Source: Bacillota bacterium
GTDB taxonomy: Bacteria; Bacillota; UBA4882; UBA10575
Reading direction: 5' to 3'
DNA: 64,000 nt
Assembly (NCBI GenBank): GCA_012735195.1
Contig: JAAYIC010000014.1
Location: 1 to 64,000 of the forward strand
The translations under genes were made by a program, and so were the position numbers. Positions 9,179 to 61,568 of this stretch are shown here, piece after piece (position 1 is the stretch's first letter; each line of letters starts with the position of its first letter). The notes beneath the pieces were generated by a model. The model had not been told where the DNA came from. It ran no database searches and saw only the letters and a list, made by a program, of their open reading frames with translations.

Positions 9179-10072
9179 TCATTCCTCCAATACAAATCGG
9201 ATATTTATCCTTATCCTGCAGGCGACCGGGGCATTGTCTTTTAAGGCCGGCCGGTAGCGCCAGTCTTTCACCGCGGCCAGCGCTGCGGCATCCAGGAGTT
9301 CATAACCGGAAGAGCGTTCCACCCGGAGGTCGCCAACGGTGCCGTCGGCGAGGATCAAGGCGTCCAGCAGTACGTTTCCTTCCCAATTATTCTCCCGGGC
9401 GGTCTGCGGATAGACCGGCGGTTTGCGGTTGACCGCTACCGGCCGGGTGATCTCCGCCCTGCCGGAGGGCATTGCCCCGTCGCTGCCGGCGGCTTCCGCT
9501 TCTCCTGTCAAGCCCGTTTCCCCTGTCAGACCCATTTTCTCTGTTAAGCCCATGCCGTCCGTTGCGGTGTTTATCTTTTCCCCGCTTACGGTTCCGGTCT
9601 CCGGACCGCTCTTTTCCGTTGCCATTGCAGCCTCTGTCGCGATTATTCTCTTGGATAGCTCCGCCTTGCCATCGTCCTGATCAGCGGGGGCTTGAGCCGG
9701 TTTTTCACCCTTGTCATCACCCGGTAGGGGGAAGACAGGAGTCACGGGAGCGGGCACTACCGCCACCGCTCGCTTTTCTTCTTTCAATATGGCCGGCTCC
9801 CTTACCGGTTCCGGAAGGCTTTGCATATCGGTTGCCCGCAAGGGAGCGGGGCTTTCTTGCGGTTGCCGGGGTTCGGCCTCCCGGCTGATGGGCGCGGGTG
9901 CAACCGCCGGTTCTTGAATGGTCACGGTCAAACGGACCGGCCCCGGGCCGGCGTCTTTTTTTCCCGGAAAAACCGGGTTCCAGAAAAGATCCGCCGCCAA
10001 AAGGGCCAGACCGTGCAGGATAAGGGAGAAAAAGAGGCTCCAGGCAAAGCCGGGGCCCTTCTTAAAAAGCAT
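9179..10072 (-). CDS. tonB: TonB energy-transducing protein
   Basis: The 297-residue protein has the classic three parts. There is an N-terminal membrane anchor at about 10-30 (LFFSLILHGLALLAADLF, with the SxxxH-like polar face), a long Pro/Glu/Ala-rich periplasmic spacer, and a C-terminal TonB domain (about 220-297) with YPQTARENNWEGNV, DGTVGDLRVERSSG and AVKDWRYRPA. It transfers energy from ExbBD to the outer-membrane receptor encoded just upstream. ATG 10072 is chosen since residues before it lack a ribosome site; it overlaps the receptor stop by 11 bp. The spacer holds three tandem GLTxxx repeats coded by an 18-bp repeat. Confidence 0.93.
   Translation of the reverse strand: MLFKKGPGFAWSLFFSLILHGLALLAADLFWNPVFPGKKDAGPGPVRLTVTIQEPAVAPAPISREAEPRQPQESPAPLRATDMQSLPEPVREPAILKEEKRAVAVVPAPVTPVFPLPGDDKGEKPAQAPADQDDGKAELSKRIIATEAAMATEKSGPETGTVSGEKINTATDGMGLTEKMGLTGETGLTGEAEAAGSDGAMPSGRAEITRPVAVNRKPPVYPQTARENNWEGNVLLDALILADGTVGDLRVERSSGYELLDAAALAAVKDWRYRPALKDNAPVACRIRINIRFVLEE
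9501..9554. repeat. Three tandem 18-bp units inside tonB
   Basis: Units at 9501-9518, 9519-9536 and 9537-9554 differ at a few positions and encode GLTGEA, GLTGET and GLTEKM in the TonB spacer. Because 18 bp is a multiple of three, copy-number change would alter spacer length without breaking the frame. Confidence 0.75.
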
Positions 10073-12002
10073 GATAAAGGCTGACCTCCAGGTTGCGGCC
10101 GGGCATGGGGTAGCCGGCATTGATTTCGTAGGCCGTATCCAGCAGGTTGTTGACGGCCATTTTCAGTTCGAAACCACCACGGGTCCGGTAGATAAGGACC
10201 GTATCCAGCAGGTGGTAGTCGGGCATAATATTAACCACTCCATCCGGGGTTTTCTGCGGGGTTCGGCCTTCCACCAGCCGCCAGTAGCCCCGTGCCTGCC
10301 ACGGCCCGCGGGTGTAAGTTATCCCAATGGCTACCCGGTGTTCGCCCAGACGGGTATTTTTAACGTAACCGGTCTCCGGTTTCCAGTCCTGCCGGTTGAG
10401 CCAGGTATAAGTGAAATCTCCACCAAAGCCGTTTTTGGCCTTCCGTTCCCAGCGGAGATCAAAACCGCTGATCCTAACCCCGTCGATGTTTTGGGTTTTG
10501 TACCCCTCGGTCCTCTGTACCCAGGCGATACCGTCGGTAAGCCGGGACCGGAAAACCCCGGCTGTCAGCGTCCCCCCGGCCCTGTCCTGCCAGTGCAGGG
10601 TCAGGTCGTAGCTTTCCCCCTTCTCCGGGCGGAGGTCCGGGTTACCGAACATGTTCCTTTCCGGGATACCGTAGTCCTCGTGCCAGTAAAGCTCATTTAC
10701 GGTCGGCGGGCGGAAGGCCCGGCCGTAACCGGCTTTTAGGGTAAGGTCCCCGGTCAGGTGTTTAACCAGGCTGAGCCGCGGGGAGAGGGCGGCCCCGTAA
10801 TCGGAGCTCTCGTCCCAACGCAGGCCGGTGAGGAGGATCAGGTCCCGCCGGATCGCCCAGTGGTCCTGGAGATAGACGGCCCCCTGCGTCCGGCTGTTCC
10901 GCCCGCTTTTTGTGCTGTGGAAATTATCATGAGCCAAGGAGATTCCGGCCAAAAGAATATGGTTTCCCGCTTCGCGGCGGAGGGAGAGTTCAGCGCCGTG
11001 CCCCTCCACCCGGTGCCGGTCGGCGCCAAAATCACTGTTGTATCGGTTATCCCAGGTCTGGGTGAAAACCCGGTACTCCCAGAGGTTTGCCGCCGCCTCT
11101 TTCCTGCCGCTGAGGTTGAGGATGAGCCGCTGGTCGTACTGGCTTCCCGTAGAAGGGAAAACAGTCGACCCGGGGATCTCCGCCTCCTTCATCAGGAGGT
11201 GGCCTTGGAGGACCAGACGGTCGCTGTTTTCACCCGCCGCCCTGAAGCTGTATTCTCCGGAAAAGTACGACTTGTTGGTGGCAGAGTTGGGCAGATACCC
11301 GGCGCTGCGACCGCCGCCGGCCGCCAACCCCCATTGCTTGCTTTTCAGGAAGACGTTCATTTCCCCGGAGCCAAATGAGCCGCCGCCCAAGAGGAAGCCG
11401 GAACGTTCCTCCCCGCTTAAGGCAGTCTCAATATTCACCACCCCGCCCATGGCGTTGGCGCCGTATAAAGGCGAAAGCGGGCCGCGGGAGATCTCCATGC
11501 GGTCCAGGGTGGCCGTGGGAAAGAGACTGAGGTCTACTTCTCCGGTGGGACCGGGATTGACCGGAACACCGTTGAACAGGAGCAGGCTCTGGTTGGCGGA
11601 AAAACCGCCCAGTTGGATGGAGGCCTGGGCAAAATCGCCTCCGGAAGCGGCGACCGGGAACCCCGCCTCTGCGACCAGGGCGGAGAGGTTGTTGCCTGTG
11701 CTTTGCCGGAGTGCCTCCCGGTCCACCACGATGGTCAGCCCGGGAGTTTCCGCGGGGCGGAGCGGGAAGCGGGCGGCGGTGACCACGACCTCCTCTTCGA
11801 TCCCTTCAAATTCAATAACCTCAACAGCTTCCGTTTCGTCAGCCCCCGCCACCGGTAAGAAGACCAGTGCCAGCAGGGTGATAACGGTAAGTAATGGCAG
11901 CCAGGATGTTGTCCGCCCAAAGGGGGACCTGTTTTTTCCTGAAAAACAGAAAAAACCTGTAATTCCCAGGCGGAACACAGGCAGTCTTCTTCTTTCCTTC
12001 AT
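10062..12002 (-). CDS. btuB: TonB-dependent outer-membrane receptor, BtuB-like (cobalamin uptake)
   Basis: This 646-residue receptor has a signal sequence (about 33-53, LLTVITLLALVFLPVAG), a TonB-box-like EEEVVVTAARF near 70, a plug domain (about 75-200, with LSLFPTATLDRMEISRGPLSPLYGANAMGGVVNIET-type motifs) and a beta-barrel ending in a terminal phenylalanine (YHAF), the usual outer-membrane sorting signal. The barrel motifs LKAGYGRAFRPPTVNELYW and NPDLRPEKGESYD are typical. It follows a cobalamin riboswitch on the same strand, so a corrinoid is the likely ligand; corrinoid specificity is inferred from that context. ATG 12002 has GGAGGG upstream. Inner-membrane BtuCDF partners are not in the window. 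Confidence 0.93.
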   Translation of the reverse strand: MKERRRLPVFRLGITGFFCFSGKNRSPFGRTTSWLPLLTVITLLALVFLPVAGADETEAVEVIEFEGIEEEVVVTAARFPLRPAETPGLTIVVDREALRQSTGNNLSALVAEAGFPVAASGGDFAQASIQLGGFSANQSLLLFNGVPVNPGPTGEVDLSLFPTATLDRMEISRGPLSPLYGANAMGGVVNIETALSGEERSGFLLGGGSFGSGEMNVFLKSKQWGLAAGGGRSAGYLPNSATNKSYFSGEYSFRAAGENSDRLVLQGHLLMKEAEIPGSTVFPSTGSQYDQRLILNLSGRKEAAANLWEYRVFTQTWDNRYNSDFGADRHRVEGHGAELSLRREAGNHILLAGISLAHDNFHSTKSGRNSRTQGAVYLQDHWAIRRDLILLTGLRWDESSDYGAALSPRLSLVKHLTGDLTLKAGYGRAFRPPTVNELYWHEDYGIPERNMFGNPDLRPEKGESYDLTLHWQDRAGGTLTAGVFRSRLTDGIAWVQRTEGYKTQNIDGVRISGFDLRWERKAKNGFGGDFTYTWLNRQDWKPETGYVKNTRLGEHRVAIGITYTRGPWQARGYWRLVEGRTPQKTPDGVVNIMPDYHLLDTVLIYRTRGGFELKMAVNNLLDTAYEINAGYPMPGRNLEVSLYHAF

Positions 12003-12149
12003 TCGTATCCCTCCTATCGACCGTAGTCCGGATTACTGGCGTACCGGCGCAATACCCAAGGGAGGTGCGGCTATGCACTGTAGAGCTTATGGGCGGCGCA
12101 TCCCCACACCGGATTGCAGATAGACCATGGGCGGGCGGCCGTGTACGCA

Positions 12150-12312
12150 CCGGCCTAAGGCAGTTCTCCTGACTTGGGTTCCTCGTCCTTTAGCGCCTTC
12201 CCGGCCGTAGCCAGTGGCTGCGTCATCCGCGGTGCTAAAGGACTCCCTCCTCACAGTGGCGGGACCGTACAGGATTTGCACCTGTTTCCCTATTAAGCCC
12301 GAAGGCACCTTA
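12150..12312 (-). promoter_or_regulatory. Cobalamin (AdoCbl) riboswitch
   Basis: Read on the minus strand, the leader shows the class elements in order: AAGGTGCCTTCGGGCTTAAT, then GGGAAACAGGTGCAAATCCTG, then the B12 box GCCACTG, and finally GGAACCCAAGTCAGGAGAACTGCC. It lies about 150 bases upstream of the receptor start. It should repress the receptor-tonB-exbBD operon when cellular cobalamin is high. Edges are approximate. Confidence 0.95.
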
Positions 12313-12337
12313 AGCCGTGGATTAAATTGTCAAGGAT

Positions 12338-25515: not shown

Positions 25516-25604
25516 TCTTAAATCTTACAAGTGATTTTTCTGAGAAGGAATTTTGGAGGCGATGCCGAAGCAATAAAGGTATTTTTACGAATGGGGTGTT
25601 AGTA

Positions 25605-27059
25605 TTGGCGGCAAGAGTAAGAGTGAGATTTGCTCCAAGTCCCACAGGATACCTCCATATCGGCAGTGCGCGAACGGCCCTTTACAATTGGCTTATGGCC
25701 AAGAAGGAGAAGGGTCTTTTTCTTCTGCGCATTGAAGACACGGACCGCTCGCGCTATGTCCCGGAGGCCATGACGGATATTATGGAGAACCTGCGGTGGC
25801 TGGGGCTTGATTGGGATGAAGGGCCGGAGGCCGGCGGCCCGGCCGGTCCTTACTACCAGTCGGAACGGGTTGAAATTTACCGGCGCCATGCCGAAGACCT
25901 GGTGGTGCAAGGTAAGGCCTATTACTGTTTCTGTTCTCCGGAACGCCTTGAAGAGCTGCGCCGCTCCGGTTACGGGTATGACGGGCATTGCCGGGAGTTG
26001 TCCGCGGAGCGTTGCCGGGAATACTTTGAAGAGGGAAAAGAGGCGGTCATCCGTTTTAAAATGCCGCGGGAGGGGAAGATCACCGTCCGGGATTACTTGC
26101 GGGGGGAGATCCTTTTTGACCTGCAGACCCTGGATGATTTTGTCCTCCTCAAGTCGGACGGATTTCCCACCTACCACCTGGCGGTTGTTGTTGACGACCA
26201 CTTGATGGCGATCACCCATGTTTTGCGGGGGGATGAATGGATCGCCAGCACTCCGCGGCATATTCTCTTGTATAAGGCCTTCGGTTGGGAACCGCCGGTC
26301 TTTATCCATCTGCCGGTCTTGTTGGCCCCGGACGGCAAGGGGAAACTCAGTAAAAGGCACGGATCCACCAGTCTCCGGGAGTACCGGGAACAAGGCTACC
26401 TGCCGGAAGCTGTGAACAACTTCTTGCTCCTCTTGGGCTGGCATCCCCCGGATGACCGGGAGGTTGTAACCATGGAGGAGGCGGCGGCGGTTTTTTCTCC
26501 GGAGCGCATCAACACTGCACCGGTGGCTTTCTCCCTGGAGAAACTGAATTGGCTTAACGGGGTCTATATCCGGAGGCTGGCCCCGGAGGATTTGGCCGCC
26601 CGGGTCTTGCCTTTCCTGCAGAAGGACGGGCTTTTGCCCGACCCCTGCCCGCCGGAGCGCTTTGCCTACCTGGTCCGGATTATCCCGCTGGTCCAGGAGA
26701 GGTTGAGGCTCCTCTCGGAGATCGGCGAGCAGACCGCCTACTTTTTTCAGGAGGAGATTCCCGCCCCGTCCCCGGAGCTTCTGGTCGGAAAGAAAAGCTC
26801 CGCTTCTGAGACCCGGGACCTTTTGGCTGCAGCCTTGAAGGTCCTGGAAGGGGTGGCGGATTTCTCCGCCGCTAATGTGGAAGAGACTTTGCGCGGACTC
26901 GCCGCAGAGTTGGGGAAAAAACCCGGACTTCTCTTTATGCCGCTCCGGGTGGCCATAACCGGGAGAACGGCCACCCCCGGGCTTTTTGAGACCATGGAGG
27001 CCATAGGGAAGCCGCGGGTCCTCCGGCGGATCCGGGCCGCCCTCAGCGGGCTGGCTTAG
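25605..27059 (+). CDS. gltX: Glutamyl-tRNA synthetase
   Basis: This 484-residue class I synthetase has HIGS at about 18-21 within RFAPSPTGYLHIGSARTAL, and KLSKRHG (KMSKS motif) near 246-252. Cysteines in YCFCSPERL and GHCR match the zinc-binding insert of bacterial enzymes. The C-terminal anticodon-binding helical domain is present to LSGLA. TTG 25605 is taken as start; a GTG three codons earlier is equally close to the GGGG ribosome site. It charges tRNA-Glu, and in Firmicutes that lack GlnRS often also tRNA-Gln. Both tRNA genes lie at 16.5-16.7 kb. Confidence 0.96.
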   Translation: MAARVRVRFAPSPTGYLHIGSARTALYNWLMAKKEKGLFLLRIEDTDRSRYVPEAMTDIMENLRWLGLDWDEGPEAGGPAGPYYQSERVEIYRRHAEDLVVQGKAYYCFCSPERLEELRRSGYGYDGHCRELSAERCREYFEEGKEAVIRFKMPREGKITVRDYLRGEILFDLQTLDDFVLLKSDGFPTYHLAVVVDDHLMAITHVLRGDEWIASTPRHILLYKAFGWEPPVFIHLPVLLAPDGKGKLSKRHGSTSLREYREQGYLPEAVNNFLLLLGWHPPDDREVVTMEEAAAVFSPERINTAPVAFSLEKLNWLNGVYIRRLAPEDLAARVLPFLQKDGLLPDPCPPERFAYLVRIIPLVQERLRLLSEIGEQTAYFFQEEIPAPSPELLVGKKSSASETRDLLAAALKVLEGVADFSAANVEETLRGLAAELGKKPGLLFMPLRVAITGRTATPGLFETMEAIGKPRVLRRIRAALSGLA

Positions 27060-27108
27060 GCGGAACTCAAGCGGGTTTTGGAAAAGACTTGGAAAGGAGG
27101 TGAAAGGG

Positions 27109-27624
27109 ATGGCAAAAACAGCCGTGTTGGTGATTGCGGAGAAGATCTTCCGGGATGAGGAGTATCTGGTCCCCAAAGAGGTGCTGGAAAAAGCGGGGAT
27201 CAAAACTTTGACCGCCTCGACCACCAGGGAATGGGCTGAAGGAAAACTGGGCGCCCGGGTACGGCCGGAGATTCTACTCAACGAGGTAAAAGCCGGGGAG
27301 ATTGACCTTCTGGTCTTTGTCGGCGGCGGTGGGGCCGAGCAGTACTTTGACGATCCGGTTGCCCATGGCCTGGCCAAGGCGATGGTCTCCGCCGGGAAAC
27401 CGGTGGCCGCCATTTGTATCGCCCCGGTAATCCTGGCCCGTGCCGGACTGCTCAAAGGGAAAAGGGCGACCGTCTATATTGACGGGGCTGAAGAACTGAA
27501 ACAGGCCGGCGCCGTTTATACGGGAAAACCCGTGGAGACCGACGGCTTGCTGATTACGGCGAACGGGCCGGAGGCGGCGGAGGATTTTGGCAGAGAACTG
27601 GTCGCCTGTTTGCAGCAGGAATAG
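27109..27624 (+). CDS. DJ-1/PfpI-family protein
   Basis: This 171-residue protein has the class I glutamine-amidotransferase-like fold of DJ-1/PfpI. The nucleophile elbow cysteine is in AAICIAPVILA (about residue 104), with FVGGGGAEQYFDD before it and the glutamate in EIFRDEEY. Members act as chaperones, deglycases or proteases, and which applies is unknown. ATG 27109 follows AAAGGAGGTG by 6-8 bases; a GTG at 27100 lies inside that site. It sits between gltX and glmM on the same strand with short gaps, probably in one operon. Confidence 0.88.
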   Translation: MAKTAVLVIAEKIFRDEEYLVPKEVLEKAGIKTLTASTTREWAEGKLGARVRPEILLNEVKAGEIDLLVFVGGGGAEQYFDDPVAHGLAKAMVSAGKPVAAICIAPVILARAGLLKGKRATVYIDGAEELKQAGAVYTGKPVETDGLLITANGPEAAEDFGRELVACLQQE

Positions 27625-27645: not shown

Positions 27646-28983
27646 ATGGGACGTTTTTTTGGTACGGATGGCGTGAGGGGGGTGGCCAACCGGGATCTAA
27701 CTCCGGAACTCGTTTTTCAACTAGGCAGGGCCGCTGCCCATGTCCTGCTCAAAGGGGGCGGCCGCATGCTGGTGGGGCGTGACACCCGCCTTTCCGGCAC
27801 GATGCTGGAGGCCGCTTTGGTGGCAGGGGTAACAGCCACCGGAGTCGATGTTGAACTTTTGGGGGTGGTCCCAACCCCGGCAGTGGCCTACCTGACCGGA
27901 CAGCGGGAGAACGCGGCCGGCGCCATGATCTCCGCTTCGCATAACCCCATTGCCGACAATGGGATCAAGTTTTTTGATCAGGAGGGTTACAAACTCAGCG
28001 ATGAGATTGAGGCGGAGATTGAAGCCTGCCTGGAGGAAACAGCCGCGGCGAAAATTGCCCGGCCGACCGGGACCGGGGTGGGCCGGGTCTTTACCACAGA
28101 CCGGGCGGAAGATGAGTATCTTGATTTTCTCAGCCGGACGGTTAAAGAGAGGTTTGACGGCCTGACGGTCGTGGTGGACTGTGCCTACGGCGCCACTTAC
28201 CGGATAGCCCCCCGTATTTTGGAGGCTTTAGGCGCCCGGGTCTACGCCTTGCACGCGGAGGACGACGGTTCCCGGATCAATGTGGACTGCGGCTCCACCA
28301 ACCCGGAGAAGCTGCGCCGGGCGGTACTGGAGAAAGGGGCGCAGGTGGGGCTGGCCCACGACGGGGACGGCGACCGGGTGATCGCCGTGGATGAAAAGGG
28401 CGAAGTGGTGGACGGCGATGCGATCATGACCGTTTGCGGCTTGCAGATGTTGGCTGAAGGCCGGTTGTCCCGCCGGACCATCGCGGCTACGGTCTACAGC
28501 AACCTGGGGCTCACCGAGACCTTCAGAGAGGCCGGGGGGGATGTGCTGATCACCGGCAACGGCGACCGCTGGGTCTTGGCGGCCATGCGCGAGAATGGGT
28601 TGAACCTGGGCGGAGAACAATCGGGCCATATCATTTTCCTTGAGCACAACACCACCGGGGATGGAGTCCTTACCGCCCTGCAGTTATTGTCGGTTTTGGT
28701 CCGGACCGGGCAACCGCTTTCGCAGTTGGCCGGACGCTTGAAGAGATTTCCCCAGCTATTGGAGAATGTCCGCGTAACCCGGAAAGAAGGTTGGGAGGAG
28801 AATACGGCGATCCGGGAAGCCATTGCCAAAGCAAAAAAACGCCTGGGTCAAAGCGGGCGGATCTTTGTCCGTGCCTCCGGTACCGAACCGTTGATCCGGG
28901 TGATGGTTGAGGGCCCGGACCGGAATCTCCTCGCCGCTTTACTGGCGGAGGTCACCGGTGTCATCGACCGGGAATTGTCTTAA
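27646..28983 (+). CDS. glmM: Phosphoglucosamine mutase
   Basis: This 445-residue enzyme converts glucosamine-6-phosphate to glucosamine-1-phosphate for peptidoglycan and LPS precursors. The phosphoserine is S98 in MISASHNP. The metal loop is DGDGDR, the sugar-binding loop GGEQSGHII, and the phosphate-binding loop RASGTEPLIRVM near the C-terminus. All four domains are complete. GGAGGA lies upstream of ATG 27646. About 60 bp after its stop comes a glmS-class ribozyme and then nagB, so the enzyme that makes its substrate may be encoded next to it. Confidence 0.97.
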   Translation: MGRFFGTDGVRGVANRDLTPELVFQLGRAAAHVLLKGGGRMLVGRDTRLSGTMLEAALVAGVTATGVDVELLGVVPTPAVAYLTGQRENAAGAMISASHNPIADNGIKFFDQEGYKLSDEIEAEIEACLEETAAAKIARPTGTGVGRVFTTDRAEDEYLDFLSRTVKERFDGLTVVVDCAYGATYRIAPRILEALGARVYALHAEDDGSRINVDCGSTNPEKLRRAVLEKGAQVGLAHDGDGDRVIAVDEKGEVVDGDAIMTVCGLQMLAEGRLSRRTIAATVYSNLGLTETFREAGGDVLITGNGDRWVLAAMRENGLNLGGEQSGHIIFLEHNTTGDGVLTALQLLSVLVRTGQPLSQLAGRLKRFPQLLENVRVTRKEGWEENTAIREAIAKAKKRLGQSGRIFVRASGTEPLIRVMVEGPDRNLLAALLAEVTGVIDRELS

Positions 28984-29037
28984 CCATTATCTTTGCTTTG
29001 AAAAACTTGTCGCAAAGAAACGTGTTTTAGAGAAACG

Positions 29038-29250
29038 ATTGAGCGCCTGGACTTGGAGGAGATTCCAAGTTGACGAGGAGGGGGATCTCGAGTTAATCGG
29101 CGGGTGACCTCCGGTTTGCCCACAACCGTTAAAGGATCCACAAAGCCCGGCGGCGACGGCGGGGACAAAAGGGTCCGGGTGGGCGCGGCACGTATGCACC
29201 GCAAGGAAAACGTGTGCCCGGCAGTGCTCACGGGGCGACGGGTAGAAAAT
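29038..29250 (+). ncRNA. glmS-class self-cleaving ribozyme in front of nagB
   Basis: The conserved elements occur in order: A-GCGCC at the cleavage site (between 29042 and 29043), a P1 hairpin ACTTGGA/TTCCAAGT, TTGACGAGGAGGGGG, GGCGGGTGACCTCCGG, and CCGTTAAAGGATCCACAAAG, followed by longer peripheral helices. This is the glucosamine-6-phosphate-activated ribozyme normally found in glmS mRNAs. Here the next gene is nagB, starting at 29293 behind GGAGGAGG. Cleavage would leave a 5'-OH message and lower nagB expression when GlcN6P is high. No clear promoter lies between glmM and the ribozyme, so read-through from glmM is likely. The 3' edge is approximate. Confidence 0.93.
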
Positions 29251-29292
29251 GAATAACAGAAGGTGTATACGCACAATGGAGGAGGAAGCTTG

Positions 29293-30111
29293 ATGGAAGT
29301 TATTATAAAAGAGAATTATGAGGAAATGAGTAGGTGTGCGGCGGAGATCATCGCTGCACATATAAAAAAGAATCCCCGCTTGGTTTTGGGTTTGGCCACC
29401 GGCGCCACCCCGGTTGGCACCTATAAGGAATTGATCCGGATGCACCGGGAAGGGCTGGATTTTTCCCAGGTGGTCACCTTTAATCTCGATGAATACCTGG
29501 GGGTGGGGATGGACCTTGGCAAACCGTATCACTTGGACCAGAGTTATGCCCGGTTTATGCATGAAGAGCTGTTTGCCCATATTAATCTCAAGCCGGAGAA
29601 TATTCATCTCCCGGACGGCTTGGCCCCGGACCCGGAGGAGTTTTGCCGCAGGTATGAAGAGGCGATTAAAAACGCCGGCGGTATCGACCTGCAGGTCTTG
29701 GGGATTGGGAGGGACGGACACTGGGCCTTTAATGAACCCGGTTCATCCCTGGCGTCCAGAACCCGGATTCAGGCGTTGACCAAAGAGACTTTGGATGATA
29801 ATTATGAGAGTTTTTACCGGCAGGCGGGGATCGCGCGGGAGGAGATGCCGCATTTTGCGATTACCATGGGGATCGGCACGATCCTTGAAGCCCGGCATAT
29901 TCTCATGCTGGCCAGCGGGAAGAAAAAAGCCCAAGTGGTGGCGAAAGCACTGGAGGGGCCGGTAACCTCCCAGATCACCGCTTCTGCCATCCAATTGTAC
30001 AGCGGGAAGGCCACGGTCATCCTTGACAAGGAGGCGGCCTCGGAATTAAAAAATATCGAATACTACCGGCATGTCGAGAAATTGAAAGCGGAAATGGAAG
30101 CCGGCCGCTAA
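29293..30111 (+). CDS. nagB: Glucosamine-6-phosphate deaminase (possibly working as aminating synthase)
   Basis: This 272-residue NagB has the full active site: D66 in FNLDEYLG, and D141, H143 and E148 in GIGRDGHWAFNEPG, the same spacing as in E. coli. SSLASRTR follows. The family interconverts GlcN6P with fructose-6-phosphate plus ammonia and is usually catabolic. A GlcN6P-sensing ribozyme in its leader and glmM directly upstream suggest product feedback on a biosynthetic enzyme, meaning it may run in the aminating direction in place of GlmS. That is inference; no glmS is seen in this window. ATG 29293 follows GGAGGAGG; an in-frame start at 29263 lacks such a site. Confidence 0.95.
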   Translation: MEVIIKENYEEMSRCAAEIIAAHIKKNPRLVLGLATGATPVGTYKELIRMHREGLDFSQVVTFNLDEYLGVGMDLGKPYHLDQSYARFMHEELFAHINLKPENIHLPDGLAPDPEEFCRRYEEAIKNAGGIDLQVLGIGRDGHWAFNEPGSSLASRTRIQALTKETLDDNYESFYRQAGIAREEMPHFAITMGIGTILEARHILMLASGKKKAQVVAKALEGPVTSQITASAIQLYSGKATVILDKEAASELKNIEYYRHVEKLKAEMEAGR

Positions 30112-58685: not shown

Positions 58686-58796
58686 AATGGTTGGCATTAG
58701 CGAGGCAATGAACTCCAGATCCTATGTGGTCACTTGGTCTGGAGGGAGCGAGTAGTGAAACCGGCGCTAATAATGGGGCGCCGGTTTTTTATTGCT
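58686..58796 (+). promoter_or_regulatory. Unclassified leader RNA with terminator/antiterminator pairing
   Basis: A hairpin CTCCAGA/TCTGGAG (about 58713-58745) is flanked by ATTAGCG (58696-58702), which is complementary to CGCTAAT (58765-58771). The latter overlaps the left arm of an intrinsic terminator, ACCGGCGC (58760-58767) pairing with GGCGCCGGT before TTTTTTATT. The two pairings exclude each other, as in riboswitch or attenuator leaders. It matches no riboswitch class I could recall. It precedes the first small secreted protein gene. Confidence 0.5.
58760..58793 (+). terminator. Intrinsic terminator inside the leader
   Basis: ACCGGCGC and GGCGCCGGT arms are followed by TTTTTTATT, 52 bp before the coding start at 58845. 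It may end the alr operon or act conditionally. Confidence 0.85.
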
Positions 58797-61466: not shown

Positions 61467-61568
61467 AGGTTTCCGAAAAGGCAAACCCGTCGAAAGGCGG
61501 GGACGCAAAGCCACGGATCTACAGTGACGCGCAGGTCACCAGGATCGCCGGGCCGCCGAAGAACCTAT
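61467..61568 (+). promoter_or_regulatory. Cyclic di-GMP-I (GEMM-I) riboswitch
   Basis: Class elements occur in order: GGCAAACC, a GAAA-capped hairpin (CCCGTC-GAAA-GGCGGG), GACGCAAAGCC, ACGGATCTA, then AGGATCGCCGGGCCGCC, enclosed by a P1 stem AGGTT/GAACCT. It lies 50-150 bases before the small secreted protein at 61620. Whether ligand binding turns the gene on or off is not evident; no strong terminator follows the aptamer. Confidence 0.93.

Follow-up and report, generated by a model that had tools for sequence, protein, structure and literature searches.

The nagB gene considered here lies in a window of 64,000 nucleotides from the draft genome of a Bacillota bacterium and has, very probably, taken the place of glmS, its product acting as an ammonia-dependent glucosamine-6-phosphate (GlcN6P) synthase under feedback control by a glmS-class ribozyme. 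This interpretation, first put forward in the initial annotation, is supported by direct observation of the identity and core of the ribozyme, the absence of GlmS, the gene order, the exchange in situ and its repeated occurrence. From these we infer the direction of NagB in vivo, the triggering of cleavage by GlcN6P and the decay of the mRNA. The enzyme would aminate fructose-6-phosphate with free ammonia to give GlcN6P, which GlmM, encoded next door, would pass towards UDP-GlcNAc and the cell wall. Accumulated GlcN6P would then act as the cofactor of the leader ribozyme, the mRNA would be cut at 29042/29043, and the nagB message downstream of the cut would be degraded, so that synthesis falls, as for glmS in Bacillus. 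In evolutionary terms, a nagB from a subfamily that is widespread and linked to GlmM/GlmU would have been placed in the glmS slot, behind a ribozyme that remained.

The ribozyme and the nagB gene

The features of the locus, in window coordinates, are as follows:

25596..27059, + strand: gltX-like aminoacyl-tRNA synthetase gene, left part of the locus frame; named from its sequence
27100..27624, + strand: PfpI/DJ-1 family gene (TIGR01382, 119.5 bits, under the cut-off of 139)
27646..28983, + strand: glmM, phosphoglucosamine mutase (TIGR01455, 567 bits, cut-off 448), directly upstream of ribozyme and nagB
29031..29186, + strand: glmS-class ribozyme, full length, of the GlcN6P-dependent self-cleaving type (RF00234, 88.7 bits, gathering threshold 37)
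29042..29043, + strand: predicted self-cleavage site, A(-1)/G(+1) in AGCGCC, from alignment to the family
29278..29285, + strand: ribosome-binding sequence of nagB, GGAGGAGG, read from the sequence
29293..30111, + strand: nagB, 272 aa, glucosamine-6-phosphate deaminase/isomerase family, DGHW subfamily (TIGR00502)

The covariance-model search firmly bears out the glmS-class ribozyme that the initial annotation had recognised in the nagB leader, between nagB and the glmM directly upstream: the RF00234 match spans model positions 1–167 with an E-value of 4e-19, and a whole-genome search returned this single copy, with no second ribozyme elsewhere to count as evidence against the claim. Only the edges have to be moved: the earlier left edge, 29038, falls inside the match, and 29293 is the more plausible start of nagB. 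All core columns that do not vary across 19 homologues are intact, including the cleavage dinucleotide A29042-G29043, and AGCGCC is kept at 29042–29047. The region folds better than its own shuffles (z -2.5, from a plain fold that cannot represent the pseudoknots of the family), and a further stem can form in the leader that separates the ribozyme from nagB. The RNA thus shares with the Bacillus-type glmS ribozyme (RF00234) its family, full length, core, cleavage site and place behind glmM in a cell-wall sugar locus. It differs in heading nagB, not glmS, in a genome without glmS, a glmS leader being the usual context of RF00234 and not a structural criterion for it.

NagB scores 284.2 bits against TIGR00502 (equivalog cut-off 236.9), and its active site, aligned to solved NagBs and numbered from the ATG at 29293, is intact with D66, D141, H143 and E148 exactly as had been claimed. 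The closest solved structures are ordinary NagBs, the best being 2bkv (also 2bkx), and with these deaminases (TIGR00502) it shares fold family, length and active-site residues. It differs from them in belonging to a GlmM/GlmU-linked subfamily with a DGHW motif and two short insertions, in its putative control by a ribozyme, in having no nagA neighbour and in the aminating direction proposed for it. A GlmS in the sense of TIGR01135 has a glutaminase domain fused to tandem SIS domains, which the ribozyme-linked gene, a nagB, does not encode; the source NagB works like GlmS at most and is not a GlmS.

NagBs of this DGHW type come from several phyla (Bacillota, Actinomycetota, Myxococcota, Chloroflexota, Elusimicrobiota and others) and are often neighbours of GlmM or of a stand-alone acetyltransferase of the GlmU type. 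Among 76 loci whose NagB is at least 55% identical to the source NagB, glmM was found within 2.5 kb in 17, a GlmU-type acetyltransferase in 13 and either of them in 26, and nagA within that distance in none. The one-contig chromosome CP070770.1, labelled Deltaproteobacteria, carries glmM-nagB with a weaker hexapeptide-transferase match.

Downstream of nagB lie a pyruvate/2-oxoacid:ferredoxin oxidoreductase set and an acyl-CoA synthetase-like pair, genes that would suit an amino-acid fermenter with ample ammonia. The window holds further riboswitches. A cobalamin riboswitch (12142–12327, reverse strand, 109.5 bits) lies ahead of a TonB-dependent receptor-like gene (10062–12002), which suggests an outer membrane in the source organism. 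Two c-di-GMP riboswitches of different classes (58692–58775 and 61471–61561, forward strand), 2.7 kb apart, flank a series of short ORFs that lie after an alanine racemase gene and have no match in Pfam.

Absence of GlmS and exchange in situ

The genome-wide search for glmS, set beforehand as the test that could refute this reading, found no GlmS in the source genome (a 131-contig draft, 94% complete, searched with TIGR01135 down to E = 1) or in two congeners, G010 and G011 (97% and 96% complete). The sole TIGR01135 match in the source genome covers residues 1–227 only, at 113–114 bits against a cut-off of 418; it was rejected as a GlmS, being PurF (TIGR01134, 522 bits), whose glutaminase half is what the model matched. 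The same search placed 14 of 14 control genomes over the cut-off and therefore works. The source genome also has two nagA genes, one of them in a cluster that also encodes a LacI-type regulator and another, divergent NagB-like protein (26% identical); GlcN6P could therefore also come from amino sugars, and amino-sugar breakdown apparently exists in this organism with separate genes.

Comparison of the locus with its relatives shows what nagB has displaced. In G009, of the same family, the order is antitoxin-mazF-gltX-cdaA-PfpI-glmM-glmS, and in G016, of the same order, it is gltX-cdaA-(other ORF)-glmM-ribozyme-glmS, whereas the source genome and its congeners have gltX-PfpI-glmM-ribozyme-nagB (the names antitoxin, mazF, cdaA, cdaR and gltX being given here from sequence and comparison). 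The gltX order is common to G009, G010, G011 and G016, and the PfpI-family gene, identically positioned in G009 and G011, is part of the conserved frame. Since neighbouring genera have glmS behind glmM at the matching locus, nagB occupies the glmS slot. In the source genus the locus (25596–27624) lacks cdaA, which G009 and G016 carry between gltX and glmM.

The two halves of the unit have different histories. The source ribozyme is 73–75% identical to glmS ribozymes of its own order against 49–62% to those that head nagB in other lineages, and in the NagB tree the source enzyme sits in a well-supported clade distinct from that of the NagBs of its own family; the RNA therefore stayed in place and a foreign nagB entered.

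Recurrence in other lineages

The initial annotation had pointed to related genomes as a place to look for the same order, and ribozyme-nagB was found throughout the genus as well as in separate lineages outside it. In a tree built from 100 NagBs, the ribozyme-linked members fall in five separate places, requiring five changes that are all forced by supported branches, and no bootstrap tree needed only one change for the ribozyme label. A single origin followed by spread of the ribozyme-nagB unit is ruled out by these forced changes and by the ribozyme identities. Three of the five lineages have no detectable glmS and two have a coexisting GlmS, so that capture of the ribozyme by nagB does not strictly depend on loss of glmS.

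Of 399 genomes drawn from the phylum, the ribozyme is present in 266 and GlmS in 328. Six have the ribozyme without GlmS, namely the three of the source genus, G142, G323 and G392. Genomes without glmS carry nagB in 54 of 71 cases against 121 of 328 with glmS (Fisher p 2e-9, ignoring kinship).

The other lineages differ in arrangement. Two Syntrophomonadaceae drafts (L028 and L071) have cdaA-cdaR-FAD oxidoreductase-glmM-ribozyme-nagB, L028 starting within cdaR, with ribozymes of 105.9 and 88.0 bits and with neither GlmS nor nagA found over cut-off. G142 and G323 have ribozyme-glmM-acetyltransferase-nagB, and neither glmS nor nagA was found in them. Their acetyltransferase is matched by GlmU-type models in the acetyltransferase part, so that the ribozyme-headed operon would cover nearly the whole route from fructose-6-P (Fru6P) through GlcN6P and GlcN1P to GlcNAc-1-P (GlcNAc1P). 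G406, a member of the same family, has ribozyme-glmM-ribozyme-glmS-acetyltransferase-ORF-nagB, likely an earlier state of this operon. In genus g130, G392 and G183 share glmM-ribozyme-nagB, and G183 has GlmS elsewhere, scored as a fragment only because a contig end and a stretch of N interrupt the gene; G392 (87% complete) was left out of the GlmS-less set for that reason. Finally, L065 (G019) has ribozyme-acetyltransferase-nagB-glmM, with GlmS elsewhere and no ribozyme pattern in the stretch examined there.

Our literature searches found no earlier link between this ribozyme and nagB, two exceptions in a 2011 collection lying outside them. That collection, by McCown et al., reportedly includes two glmS ribozymes without a glmS, and a non-glmS target may thus have been seen earlier.

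Direction of the reaction and competing explanations

The NagB reaction is reversible, enzymes of the family often favour deamination, and the aminating direction is usually dismissed as non-physiological. Cleavage triggered by GlcN6P suits an enzyme that makes GlcN6P and would be perverse wiring for one that degrades it, which is why we favour feedback; ribozyme and gene context together argue for the aminating, not the catabolic, direction in vivo. An anabolic NagB-type enzyme has been described in Giardia, with a Vmax of 100 aminating and 38 deaminating and a Km for ammonium of 23 mM (PMC4281351). The glucosamine-6-phosphate isomerases of Giardia and Entamoeba belong to the NagB family and make GlcN6P from ammonia, as is proposed for the source enzyme, in organisms likewise described as having no GlcN6P synthase; they differ in belonging to eukaryotic parasites, in having no ribozyme and in serving a cyst-wall sugar and not peptidoglycan (PMC4281351).

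Of the competing explanations, the one that survives best, though we regard it as unlikely, is that glmS was lost, that imported or recycled amino sugars sustain the organism and that the old ribozyme stands by chance before a catabolic nagB. Akkermansia provides a precedent, being likewise a bacterium with NagB and without GlmS, with no ribozyme reported; it still needs GlcNAc, and its NagB fails to aminate at physiological levels (PMC5902328). By analogy, having NagB but no GlmS may go with amino-sugar auxotrophy, and both the nagA genes of the source genome and eight GlmS-less members of its family, which have no ribozyme and carry nagB among other, transporter-like gene families, fit such a life. 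A relic would decay, however, whereas the source ribozyme and its core are kept in three congeners at 86–89% identity. Nor would one expect a catabolic gene to have captured the ribozyme time and again, yet ribozyme-linked NagBs form five separate lineages; several of these have no nagA, and glmM and an acetyltransferase occur as partners.

We give still less credence to a feed-forward arrangement in which cleavage increases nagB expression, the gene being released from the glmM transcript, say, or from structure in the leader, and GlcN6P would thereby switch on its own degradation. Co-transcription of glmM and nagB may occur and the stem past the ribozyme could form, but the same ribozyme class lowers expression where tested, according to the glossary of PMC10043782. 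Elsewhere the ribozyme heads glmM, glmS, glnA and fbp, all of which supply the GlcN6P pathway, and an opposite sign for nagB alone is thus unlikely; moreover, no GlmS would remain to make the GlcN6P. It is scarcely credible that glmS simply lies in the missing 5–6% of the draft, with NagB playing no part in synthesis: draft gaps do happen, as the G183 gene shows, but the congeners at higher completeness also lack glmS, its ancestral slot is assembled in all three genomes of the genus and holds nagB, and GlmS is likewise absent from the one-contig chromosome CP070770 (L008) with its glmM-nagB.

Replacement of GlmS by an aminating NagB thus remains our preferred reading, and we consider it likely, with somewhat less confidence, that the DGHW subfamily is an ammonia-dependent GlcN6P synthase replacing GlmS in many anaerobes, that the glmS ribozyme repeatedly came to control NagB and that the RNA tracks the metabolic step rather than the gene family. 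If so, an enzyme can take over the metabolite-sensing ribozyme of a non-homologous enzyme for the same step, as would have happened several times, and these loci would be direct genetic evidence that bacterial peptidoglycan sugar synthesis can start from ammonia via NagB. Annotation would then need caution, as not every nagB would be catabolic and not every GlmS-less genome that of an amino-sugar auxotroph. The direction of NagB, moreover, becomes testable through its own regulator.

Other genes were also seen behind glmS ribozymes. One ribozyme (L191, G071:C165, 2266–2418, reverse strand, 101.3 bits) lies directly ahead of a glutamine synthetase gene (TIGR00653, 578 bits), and another (L187, G390:C7, 7952–8125, forward strand, 100.1 bits) directly ahead of a fructose-1,6-bisphosphate aldolase/phosphatase (NF041126, 592 bits), a maker of Fru6P; both genomes also have ribozyme-glmS. 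Two ribozymes at one locus (L189, 6941–7094 and 8598–8751) head glmM and glmS, respectively. In two genomes of one genus (G351 and G260), a ribozyme precedes a GlmS of 388–389 aa with SIS domains only and no glutaminase domain (L236, 1501–2664, and L237, 1001–2167, both reverse strand), possibly a different way of arriving at an enzyme that depends on ammonia or has two parts.
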